DNA of 64,000 bases from Streptantibioticus silvisoli (GTDB lineage: Bacteria > Actinomycetota > Actinomycetes > Streptomycetales > Streptomycetaceae): contig NZ_JAAGKO020000011.1 of the NCBI RefSeq assembly GCF_027947535.2, positions 1 to 64,000 on the forward strand, given 5' to 3'. Made by a program: the position numbers and the translations under genes. Numbering within the stretch: the stretch's first letter is position 1; every line of letters starts with the position of its first letter. A model generated the notes under the pieces. It worked only from the letters and a program-made list of their open reading frames with translations, had not been told where the DNA came from and did no database searches. Positions 39,973 through 44,012 of the stretch are shown one piece after another.

Positions 39973-40191
39973 TCAGGCGGCGGCCTTCTTTCCCCTGGTC
40001 GCACCTCCGCGGCCGCGGAGAGCCACACCGGACTCACTCAGCATGCGGTGGATGAATCCGTAGGACCGGCCCGTCTCCTCGGCCAGCGCCCGGATACTCG
40101 CACCGGAGTCGTATTTCCTCTTGAGGTCAGCCGCGAGCTTTTCGCGCGCGGCGCCGGTCACCCGGCTGCCCTTCTTCAGAGTCTCGGCCAC
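39973..40191 (-). CDS. gbn: GATC-binding nucleoid-associated protein Gbn
   Basis: This 72-residue basic protein has a helix-turn-helix (KKYDSG-like ASIRALAEETGRSYGFIHRMLSESG) and a Lys-rich tail (GRGGATRGKKAAA). It matches S. coelicolor Gbn (SCO1839), a small nucleoid protein that binds GATC sites and affects development (recalled). The GTG at 40191 has GGAGGAGG just upstream; an ATG at 40227, also with GGAGGGG upstream, would add 12 residues. A GATC sits directly before that ATG, so self-binding is possible. Confidence 0.9.
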   Translation of the reverse strand: MAETLKKGSRVTGAAREKLAADLKRKYDSGASIRALAEETGRSYGFIHRMLSESGVALRGRGGATRGKKAAA

Positions 40192-40227
40192 CCGTGCCTC
40201 CTCCAGGAAGTGCCTTCGGACTCTCAT

Positions 40228-40598: not shown

Positions 40599-42197
<1,599 letters not shown>

Positions 42198-42266
42198 GGA
42201 AGGAACTCCAGGGCAGGACCAGGACAGGGATGGACGGCAGGACGGACGGGCGGGGCCGGTTGCCGT

Positions 42267-42290
42267 CTAGTGCACGAGGTTGACTGCCAT
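42267..42290 (-). CDS. 7-codon leader ORF (MAVNLVH) upstream of the ABC-F gene
   Basis: On the minus strand ATG-GCA-GTC-AAC-CTC-GTG-CAC-TAG encodes MAVNLVH. It starts 93 nt upstream of the ABC-F GTG and ends 70 nt before it. A TAGACT -10 box lies 7 nt before its ATG, so the mRNA would begin at or near this ORF. Upstream peptides of this kind control several known ABC-F resistance genes by ribosome stalling; this is an inference from position, not shown here. Confidence 0.5.
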   Translation of the reverse strand: MAVNLVH

Positions 42291-42297
42291 GGGCGTC

Positions 42298-42303
42298 AGT
42301 CTA
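42298..42303 (-). promoter_or_regulatory. -10 box of the leader/ABC-F transcript
   Basis: TAGACT on the minus strand fits the TANNNT streptomycete -10 consensus and is spaced 7 nt from the leader ATG, the typical distance for a leaderless start. I found no strong -35. Confidence 0.55.
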
Positions 42304-42614
42304 CCGGGCGCCGCGACGGCGCCCGGTGGGCCCGGGAGCGGGGCCGCCCGGCCGGCGCCGCGGCGGCGGCCCGCCGCGGGGTGCCGGTGCGGGATGCCGG
42401 TGCGGGATGCCGGTGCGCGGGGCCGGGATGTCCCCGGGGTGCCGGCGGGCGGGGCCGGGATGTCTCCGGGGTGCCGGCGGGCGGGGCCGGGGCGTCCCTG
42501 CGGTGCCGGCGCGCGGGGCCGGCATGTTCCGGGGGCGGCGCGCGGGGCCGACGCGTCCCCGCGGTGCCGGCGCGCGTCCCTGCGGGGGCCGGGCCGGCGG
42601 CCCGGCCCCCGGGG
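42302..42614. repeat. Five 32-bp tandem repeats plus a 13-bp repeat, 3' of the HEAT-like gene
   Basis: Three 13-bp units (TGCCGGTGCGGGA, 42382-42419) are followed by five units of 29-32 bp beginning GGGCCGGGATGTCCCCGGGG-like at 42420, 42452, 42484, 42516 and 42545. The first two differ by one base. The block fills the gap between the ABC-F leader promoter and the stop codon of the gene at 42615. Confidence 0.85.
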
Positions 42615-44012
42615 TCATTCGCCTCCGGTGTGGACCTCGAACGCGGCGCGGCGGACGGCCTTGGCGAGCGCGGGGTCGGGGTGGGCGGAGGCGAGGGCGA
42701 CCAGGACCTGGACGGTGCGCGGGTGGCCGGTGGCGCGGATCTCCTCCAGCAGGCGCGGGACCGGTCCCTGAAGCGCCGTCTCCAGGTGGCCGACGAGCAG
42801 CTGGCTCTCGCCGTGTTCGGCGACCGCGGCGGCGGTGTCGACCCACAGCCAGGTGGCCTCCTCGCGGGTGAGCAGCGCGGCCTGCTCCTCCGGCTCCAGC
42901 CCCTGCTCCTCCGCCAGCCACAGCACCGCGTACGGGCGCAGCATCGGTTCGTCGACGACGGCGCGCACGGCGGGTTCGGCGGGCGCGCCGACGGTGCGCA
43001 GCGCCTCGAAGGCCAGCCCGCGCAGCAGCGCGTCGTCGCCGCGGGCCACGTCGAGCAGCTCCCCGACGGCCTGCCGGACCGGGCGGGCGGCCAGCCACGC
43101 CTTGTACTCGGTACGGGCCGGGCCGGGCGAGTACTGGGCGCAGGCGCGCAGCAGGTCCTCGGCGGACTGCTCGATGTGGCCGGCCGGGCCCTGCGCGGCG
43201 ACGCAGATCTGTTCCAGCTTCACCCAGACCGCCCAGCTGCCCAGCTCGGTCAGCACGACGTCCTCGGTGGCCCCCGCGCGGGTGCGCAGCGCGCCGACGC
43301 CGACCAGCGCGTCGAGCGTCCACTCCAGCAGCGCGGCCAGCGGCGCGGCGGCACCGTCGGGCTGCTCGGTGGGCGGTTCGTGGCGTTCGGTGCGCAGCTC
43401 GGCGACTCGGGCGGTGAGCAGGTCGAGCAGGGCCTCGACGGCGACCGGGCCGGAGGACAGGTGCAGCAGCGACAGCAGTTGCGGGGCGGCCTCGACGACC
43501 TCGGCGATCAGCGACAGGTCGCCGAGGGCGGGCGCGGGGTGGTAGAGCGACCAGGCGTCGAACAGGGCGACCCAGCCGCGCAGGATCGCGGTGTCGTCCC
43601 CGGTCCACGCGCGTAGCCGCCATCCCGGCCGTGCGGTGCCGTCCCGGATCTCGATCAGGCCGGCGAGTCTCGCCTGGTCCCAGGCGGCCGCCACCTGATC
43701 GTGCGTCAGCTTCAGTGCCGCTGCCGCGAGTTGGAGTTCGGCCAGCGGCAGCGTGCCGCTGGGCTCCGGGTGCAGCGGGCCGCTGCGGGCGGCGCGGCCG
43801 GTGCGGGTGTCCGCCGGGTCGGCCCAGTACGCGAGCCGGGCCGCGTCGGCCAGTACGGCCCTCGCCAGGGCCGCGAGTTCGGCGTTGGCGGGGGTTCCGT
43901 CGGGCGGGCGGGGCGGCCCGGTGCGGCGGGCCTGGGCGGCCCTCCGCACAGCCGCGATCGGCTGCTGGTTCACGAGCCGGAGCTTGGTGTCGCGCTGGGA
44001 ACGGGACGTCAC
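42615..44012 (-). CDS. HEAT-like alpha-helical protein of unknown function
   Basis: The 465-residue protein starts with a Gln/Arg-rich helix (LVNQQPIAAVRRAAQARR), then a winged-helix-like part (LKLTHDQVAAAWDQARLAGLIEIRDG) and a long all-helical half with repeat-like blocks (DDALLRGLAFEALRTVGAPAEPAVRAV; HPRTVQVLVALASAHPDPALAKAVRRAAFEV), suggestive of HEAT repeats. No catalytic motif is seen. It is paralogous to the protein at 62248. The GTG at 44012 lies 7 nt after a TAAGAC -10 with TTGGGA 17 bp upstream, so the mRNA is probably leaderless. Confidence 0.8.
   Translation of the reverse strand: MTSRSQRDTKLRLVNQQPIAAVRRAAQARRTGPPRPPDGTPANAELAALARAVLADAARLAYWADPADTRTGRAARSGPLHPEPSGTLPLAELQLAAAALKLTHDQVAAAWDQARLAGLIEIRDGTARPGWRLRAWTGDDTAILRGWVALFDAWSLYHPAPALGDLSLIAEVVEAAPQLLSLLHLSSGPVAVEALLDLLTARVAELRTERHEPPTEQPDGAAAPLAALLEWTLDALVGVGALRTRAGATEDVVLTELGSWAVWVKLEQICVAAQGPAGHIEQSAEDLLRACAQYSPGPARTEYKAWLAARPVRQAVGELLDVARGDDALLRGLAFEALRTVGAPAEPAVRAVVDEPMLRPYAVLWLAEEQGLEPEEQAALLTREEATWLWVDTAAAVAEHGESQLLVGHLETALQGPVPRLLEEIRATGHPRTVQVLVALASAHPDPALAKAVRRAAFEVHTGGE

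Follow-up and report, generated by a model that had tools for sequence, protein, structure and literature searches.

A short, predicted leaderless ORF before the core ABC-F gene of Streptomyces and its relatives, and its complementarity to the initiation region of that gene

Does a seven-codon open reading frame (ORF) that follows a -10-like box and precedes an ABC-F gene help to sense ribosome-targeting drugs, and if so, by what means? The question is raised by a locus of Streptantibioticus silvisoli (family Streptomycetaceae) in a stretch of 64,000 nucleotides (nt) (positions 1 to 64,000 of contig NZ_JAAGKO020000011.1), hereafter called the window. All parts are on the minus strand: the box TAGACT (42298..42303), a gap of 7 nt (42297-42291), a predicted leaderless upstream ORF (uORF) that encodes MAVNLVH (42267..42290; ATG GCA GTC AAC CTC GTG CAC TAG, with the ATG at 42290 and the TAG ending at 42267) and the gene for an ABC-F ATPase of 532 amino acids (40599..42197, GTG start at 42197). 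An earlier sequence-only reading had described this arrangement, which was confirmed in the sequence, and the uORF does end shortly before the GTG, at a distance of 69 nt and not 70. That reading proposed a leader peptide which senses the state of the ribosome directly; its interpretation is partly supported, and it overlooked that the uORF can pair with the region where ABC-F translation starts. For the family as a whole the explanation that we prefer, and consider reasonably probable, is a translation attenuator of the cat/cmlA type in which a leaderless sensor ORF is its own anti-Shine-Dalgarno (anti-SD) strand. The same reading is less certain for the copy in the window, and the mechanism rests on the relatives because the fold and the SD pairing of the window copy are weak.

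A conserved short ORF behind a -10-like box

The upstream regions of the gene in other genomes of the family were searched for five forms of a TAnnnT box, chosen after a first look at the leaders, with an ATG 5-8 nt further on that opens an ORF no longer than 12 codons. This layout was found in 98/119 family genomes and in 15 of the 17 sampled genera. The box was TAGACT in 87 of the 98 leaders, TAGAAT in 8 and each of three other forms once; the gap to the ATG was 6 nt in 40 and 7 nt in 58, and no other gap occurred although 5-8 nt were allowed. The ORF had 7 codons in 84 leaders, 8 in seven, 12 in four, 10 in two and 6 in one, and its stop was TAG in 97/98. A strict detector, whose boxes were also picked after the first look, found 97/119 family upstreams; it had no hit on the reverse strand, nor in any of the 20 dinucleotide-shuffled sets. 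The 64-kb window has a single TAGACT-N7-ATG, against 0.02 expected, and a looser 7-codon pattern occurs once in the whole 8.7-Mb genome. A chance origin of the layout was rejected on the basis of these zero counts and the expectation of 0.02 in the window. Among named Streptomyces-group loci (80 kept of 593; any TAnnnT box, gap of 6-7 nt, 3-15 codons) the uORF was present in 80/80 and had 7 codons in 74; the named and family sets share some genomes and are thus not independent.

The sequence-only reading had looked to conservation of the heptapeptide and its spacing across species as a check. Frame, length and promoter spacing hold across the 15 genera and the 80 named loci, so that the outcome which that reading would have taken as refuting it did not occur; exact conservation of the heptapeptide was rejected, since 62 distinct peptides occur across the 98 family leaders and 68 named loci. 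The conserved features are Ala2, mostly hydrophobic codons 3-5, His/Asp/Gln at codon 7 and the TAG stop: of 49 distinct 7-codon ORFs, 46 have Ala at codon 2 (with A, T or C as third base in 45), 48 have His/Asp/Gln at codon 7 and 48 end in TAG. In longer relatives (MAVLLWVH, MAILPAHD, MAVLLTDPTD) the reading frame and the blocks on either side are retained. The Streptomyces and g7 consensus models described below leave codon 7 and the stop unpaired, so pairing does not explain their constraint there. Gly is found at neither position 3 nor position 4 of 47 distinct heptamers and 11 times at position 6, which is weak evidence because codon 4 is also limited by its anti-SD role. We regard the leader ORF as real and conserved, and very probably functional. 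The C-terminal Asp/His is a candidate termination-stall signal. The uORF reads MAECHTHV in three leaders of the genus Kitasatospora (L064, L065 and L067) and MAVCHDHR in a fourth (L095).

The gap of 6-7 nt places the A of the ATG at the 7th or 8th base after the -10 box. In S. coelicolor, promoters activated by WblC mostly start transcription 7-8 bp downstream of the -10, in agreement with the genome-wide mapping to which the same paper refers (PMC7157823). Given that the A of the ATG falls where these start sites mostly lie, and does so in 98/98 leaders, a leaderless start of the uORF, as the sequence-only reading had proposed, is likely. In the promoters of the Streptomyces leaders two blocks, GGAAAA and TTGC, are conserved at 11-24 nt before TAGACT. 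These blocks resemble a WblC site plus -35, with TTGC as -35 hexamer only about 8 nt before TAGACT; a WblC/WhiB7 promoter is therefore doubtful, as the distance between -35 and -10 in WblC promoters is 16-19 nt. In one genome (locus L030, G046) the leader is lost and a TAGACT promoter lies 6 nt before the ABC-F GTG, so that the ABC-F gene itself would be leaderless.

The ABC-F protein scores 388.5 bits against a cut-off of 380 for NCBIfam NF000355 ('ribosomal protection-like ABC-F') and by this curated family score is assigned to the ribosomal-protection type. Among its PDB relatives YbiT is nearest and PoxtA, a phenicol/oxazolidinone resistance factor, second. The gene (85-100% identity) was found in 120/121 sampled genomes of the family, of which one has the gene starting at a contig edge, leaving 119 usable upstream regions. 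A quick scan of other ABC-F loci of the same genome (L002-L006, of which L004 and L005 are one gene and the true starts are uncertain) found no similar uORFs.

Pairing between the uORF and the ABC-F start

RNAalifold was run separately on three clades, with the long-spacer leaders of g10 and g7 excluded from the alignments. The clade labels used here are g10 for Streptomyces, g15 for Kitasatospora and g14 for Streptantibioticus; g7 includes species that still carry the name Streptomyces (S. fildesensis, S. acidipaludis). In all three clades the uORF was predicted to pair with the ABC-F initiation region. The Streptomyces model (22 leaders) pairs uORF bases 1-4 with the start codon region, bases 10-13 (CTCC) with the GGAG of the SD and bases 16-18 with CGC, the Kitasatospora model (20 leaders) pairs ATGGCT with AGCCAT and bases 10-13 with GGAG, and the model of g7 plus the window (18 leaders) pairs uORF bases 2-8 with ABC-F codons 3-5. 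Anchored pairs were counted in 78 distinct leaders, obtained from the 84 seven-codon leaders by merging identical pairs to 79 and dropping L119, which lacks GGAG. The SD helix was complete in 61/78 (g10 23/24, g15 and g12 18/19, g7 11/24, nine smaller genera 9/11) and its cells were paired at 0.93, compared with 0.34-0.58 when slid by 1-3 nt. The start-codon helix of g15 and g12 was complete in 16/19 cognate combinations vs 3% of swapped ones, and the codon 3-5 helix of g7 in 18/24 cognate combinations vs 6% of those swapped to other genera. All seven pairs were found in 81 of 91 leaders with CTC at codon 4, a set from which five of 96 distinct leaders without CTC at codon 4 or GGAG had been dropped, so that three of the four SD pairs are given by selection and the real test lies in bases 13 and 16-18. 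Within Streptomyces 98% of the cells were paired vs 33-56% when slid. The duplex energies between uORF and start beat those of shuffled ORFs (mean z -2.0); against ORFs with uniform synonymous codons the mean z was -1.13.

A second ABC-F paralog, 59-63% identical and present in 20/121 genomes (L127-L137, L257-L265), has its own uORF of 7 codons in 20/20, encoding MSTPRIS and variants (one MSTLFIS), with stop TAG, 6-7 nt after a TAnnnT box and 58-64 nt before the gene. Its uORF-SD helix has 6 pairs changed on both sides vs 2.9 in shuffles and a covariation of 0.163 vs 0.090 (0/500 shuffles as high); this is support and not proof, because related rows can exceed such shuffles without structure. 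The number of further pair types was not significant (50/500 shuffles). Cells were paired in 86% vs 31-40% when slid, a figure that is favoured by taking the structure from the fold of one of the paralog's own rows; RNAalifold alone gave the same core helix (7/10 pairs). The SD was predicted to pair with the uORF at p >0.5 in 20/20, and masking the uORF in the fold lifted SD openness from 0.22 to 0.46, compared with 0.22 for control masks, with a rise >0.1 in 15/20.

Outside the family, 62 loci from other families of the class were compared (60 picked from the best-listed matches, plus L165 and L166). A leaderless-looking ORF of 4-13 codons, starting with ATG or GTG, was found in 23/62, and the strict detector found 22/61 and none on the reverse strand. 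The peptides are unrelated (MRTPD, MRAPD, MMPVAD, MNSVAD, MLRCEP, MIRTS, MLLLD and others) and several of the ORFs are complements of their own SD stretch, such as ACTCCCGA with TCGGGAGT (L211) and CTCCGTGGC with GCCACGGAG (L193). The cognate duplexes had a mean energy of -17.4 kcal/mol vs -12.5 (standard deviation 0.7) after whole-family swaps, with 0/20000 as low (9 families). Against shuffled ORFs z was below -1 in 16/23 and above 0 in 3/23, and for 6/23 ORFs at least a third of foreign genes paired as well. Where an SD could be placed (14/23), masking the uORF opened it from 0.21 to 0.36 (controls 0.24), and in 7/14 the SD paired mainly with the uORF.

Several results weigh against the attenuator. 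The short ATG form is absent from two genera (16 genomes; g2 0/3, g3 0/13); by eye, TAGACT is followed in two g2 sequences by longer ORFs, of 14 and 15 codons. The boxes of the paralog are of poor quality (such as TACCCT and TACCGT), and the strict detector accepted 0/20 of its leaders. The g7 leaders complete the SD helix in only 11/24, and this helix forms equally well with the genes of other genera, because GGAG is constant. The codon 3-5 helix in the nine smaller genera is complete in 3/11 vs 27% after swapping. Within Streptomyces the helices hardly vary, with no two-sided change and covariation equal to that of shuffles. Masking the uORF in the main-gene set (n = 78) raised SD openness from 0.14 to 0.26 but a spacer control mask also gave 0.22; a clear SD difference was seen in the ATG-start group only (uORF mask 0.30 vs 0.17), the GTG-start genomes giving 0.25 for both uORF and control masks, and openness of the start codon in the main set fell from 0.34 to 0.27. 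The duplexes are hardly better than those formed by upstream DNA of natural sequence (mean z -0.44) or by synonymous ORFs rich in GC (-0.41).

The window copy adds to these points, as its fold (z 0.32) is no better than shuffles and its codon 4, AAC, breaks the anti-SD; pairing of SD and uORF has a p of about 0.001. The SD GGAG (42206..42209), the partner of uORF bases 10-13 in the Streptomyces and Kitasatospora models, is here unpaired with the uORF, whose predicted partner is instead the stretch from -29 to -15 ahead of the SD; uORF bases 3-7 are predicted to pair with CTGCC (42212..42216), just before the SD, at p about 0.9. ACTGCCA (42185..42191) in ABC-F codons 3-5 is the complement of uORF bases 2-8 and could form the alternative helix of the g7 leaders, at p about 0.07 in the window copy. 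The fold of the window leader also predicts an inner hairpin with the 5' arm GACGGCA (42261..42267), whose first base is the last base of the uORF stop, and the 3' arm TGCCGTC (42233..42239). In sum, the folding models support masking of SD or start by uORF RNA in the paralog, Streptomyces and Kitasatospora, and do not support it for the SD of the window copy; over the main-gene set the change in accessibility is weak.

A proposed attenuator and its alternatives

In the proposed attenuator the mRNA would begin at the AUG of the 7-codon ORF, as the -10 spacing suggests. At rest, the uORF RNA and the hairpin that starts at its stop would fold onto the ABC-F initiation region and limit ABC-F translation. 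Ribosomes would load without a Shine-Dalgarno sequence, translate the seven codons and leave, and the fold would re-form. A peptidyl-transferase drug would stop the ribosome early on the uORF, its footprint would cover the uORF and release the partner strand, and from the freed initiation region the ABC-F ribosome-protection factor would be made. Stalling would probably occur at codon 3, with Ala2 as the penultimate residue in the chloramphenicol/linezolid context; given the size of a ribosome footprint, nearly all of the 24-nt ORF would be covered when codon 3 is in the P site, and the inner hairpin would stay in place. A penultimate Ala and, less so, Ser or Thr lets chloramphenicol and linezolid halt the ribosome (PMC8987054), and Ala2 would therefore suit stalling by these drugs. 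In one structure of a chloramphenicol arrest the peptide was MAI (PMC10552525), which equals the first three residues of the MAILLAH of relatives. A phenicol or oxazolidinone as the drug is, by this analogy, a suggestion that we make tentatively.

In cat and cmlA, the start of the resistance gene is masked by RNA until a ribosome that stalls on a short leader ORF opens this RNA (PMC8876359), and the Ala/Ser/Thr context for phenicols is a further likeness (PMC8987054). Here, too, a short ORF lies close upstream of the gene (98/119 and 80/80) and is presumably translated. With its strong SD and 9 codons, the cmlA leader differs from the uORF described here, which is predicted to be leaderless, usually has 7 codons, and precedes a chromosomal ABC-F gene in Actinomycetes. 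Very short uORFs also precede the ABC-F genes of msrD (msrDL, MYLIFM), vmlR, lsaA and cplR (PMC10314930, PMC10201436), the last three compared as consensus peptides only. In contrast to the present leader, msrDL is preceded by a ribosome-binding site and works through an intrinsic terminator, of which none was found between the uORF and the gene in window positions 42100-42650. The Streptomyces ARE5 genes are5sc, tiaA and lmrC share the host group and have uORFs before an ABC-F gene (PMC12421871, PMC8546547), but belong to the ARE5 subfamily, with long 5' untranslated regions (194 and 232 bp), control by terminator and antiterminator, and uORF peptides (MLV and MVGDDDISG) unlike the heptapeptides here. 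Excerpts of the open-licence PMC literature contained no description of a leaderless uORF before this ABC-F gene; what is new compared with known attenuators is the leaderless leader, as predicted, and its direct use as the masking strand.

If the uORF were to set early termination against read-through, Rho-dependent or at an unusual intrinsic site, control would be by transcription attenuation, as in lmrC of Streptomyces (PMC8546547), whiB7/wblC (PMC11550727) and msrD. The composition of 94 spacers, in which C is enriched and G reduced relative to upstream DNA (C 0.47 and G 0.27 vs 0.39 and 0.36), is compatible with this, but C is at least twice G in only 16% of them, 5 T within 8 nt occur in only 11/94 and never more, the window leader lacks a terminator-like site, and the predicted pairing aims at the SD and start codon; we consider this explanation unlikely. 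The uORF might alternatively do no more than load ribosomes that restart on the ABC-F gene by reinitiation or translational coupling. Seven loci of the genus Kitasatospora would suit such a role: in L064, L065, L067 and L095 the uORF stop lies inside the SD (TAGGAG, 14 nt from the ATG), and in L066, L072 and L076 no stop intervenes and the frame extends until it overlaps the start of the ABC-F gene in ATGA. The distance from stop to start is nevertheless 56-185 nt in the other 94/98 leaders, and a loading ORF would need neither fixed length nor pairing, which makes this account rather improbable.

Two further accounts concern what the short frame itself would do. Leu is common at codons 4 and 5 (34 and 30 of 47 distinct heptamers) and the LeuL leaders of S. 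lividans are leaderless (PMC8079986), as would be expected of an attenuator in which Leu codons report charged tRNA-Leu. That MAIFSGQ, MAVFPGH, MSTPRIS and MRTPD have no Leu, that the target is not a leucine gene and that CTCC is accounted for by the anti-SD make a leucine attenuator very improbable. Lastly, much of the uORF is paired in the clade models, as in a structured 5' end whose short frame is incidental and untranslated. The presence of ATG and stop alone proves nothing on this point, since the search required both; the length of 7 codons in 84/98, the longer variants that retain frame and flanking blocks, and the very strong conservation of codon 7 and stop, bases that two of the three clade models leave unpaired, leave a purely RNA element with hardly any probability.

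The translation attenuator could extend beyond the family, although we regard this as doubtful. In such an Actinomycetes-wide system a core phenicol/oxazolidinone-type ABC-F would be guarded by a leaderless anti-SD mini-ORF, the first codons of the mRNA being both sensor and antisense strand. The peptide would be free to change (MAILLAH, MAIFSGQ, MRTPD, MMPVAD and the paralog's MSTPRIS) while the RNA tracks the initiation region and the Ala/Ser/Thr context stays, and the leaderless start would sample 70S initiation directly. One family, which we take to be the mycobacteria, had a leaderless uORF in 0/30 upstreams, of which at least one (L234) was wrongly cut at a contig end. Its oxazolidinone-chloramphenicol ABC-F, OcrA (Rv1473 / MAB_2736c), is presumably the orthologue of the core ABC-F and would differ in lacking such a uORF. 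Knock-down of OcrA in Mycobacterium tuberculosis sensitises to linezolid (PMC9159947).

If the attenuator is as proposed, the uORF would be a minimal, 24-nt sensor of ribosome-targeting drugs on a core ABC-F gene of Streptomyces and relatives, and leaderless initiation could act as a regulatory input. It would also supply a set of naturally occurring mini-ORFs, differing in their peptides, on which the nascent-chain context recognised by each drug could be tested. Searches for uORFs that require a Shine-Dalgarno sequence may overlook the leaderless kind.

Other features of the locus

No promoter-like site with a -35 was found in window positions 42100-42650, and no known Rfam cis-regulatory element in 42100-42500, where two matches, both on the other strand, were far below the gathering scores. 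Directly upstream of the -10 box, at 42304-42326, lies a perfect 9-bp inverted repeat with a 5-nt loop (ccgggcgccgcgacggcgcccgg), which by eye is absent from the same place in the compared promoters of relatives. GC-rich low-complexity repeats fill about 42360-42600, between the end of the upstream gene and the uORF promoter. Downstream of the ABC-F gene, at about 39973-40227 on the minus strand, a small helix-turn-helix-like protein is encoded (AETLKKGSRVTGAAREKL...); a similar small neighbour, Rv1473A, presumably stands beside the mycobacterial ABC-F gene.
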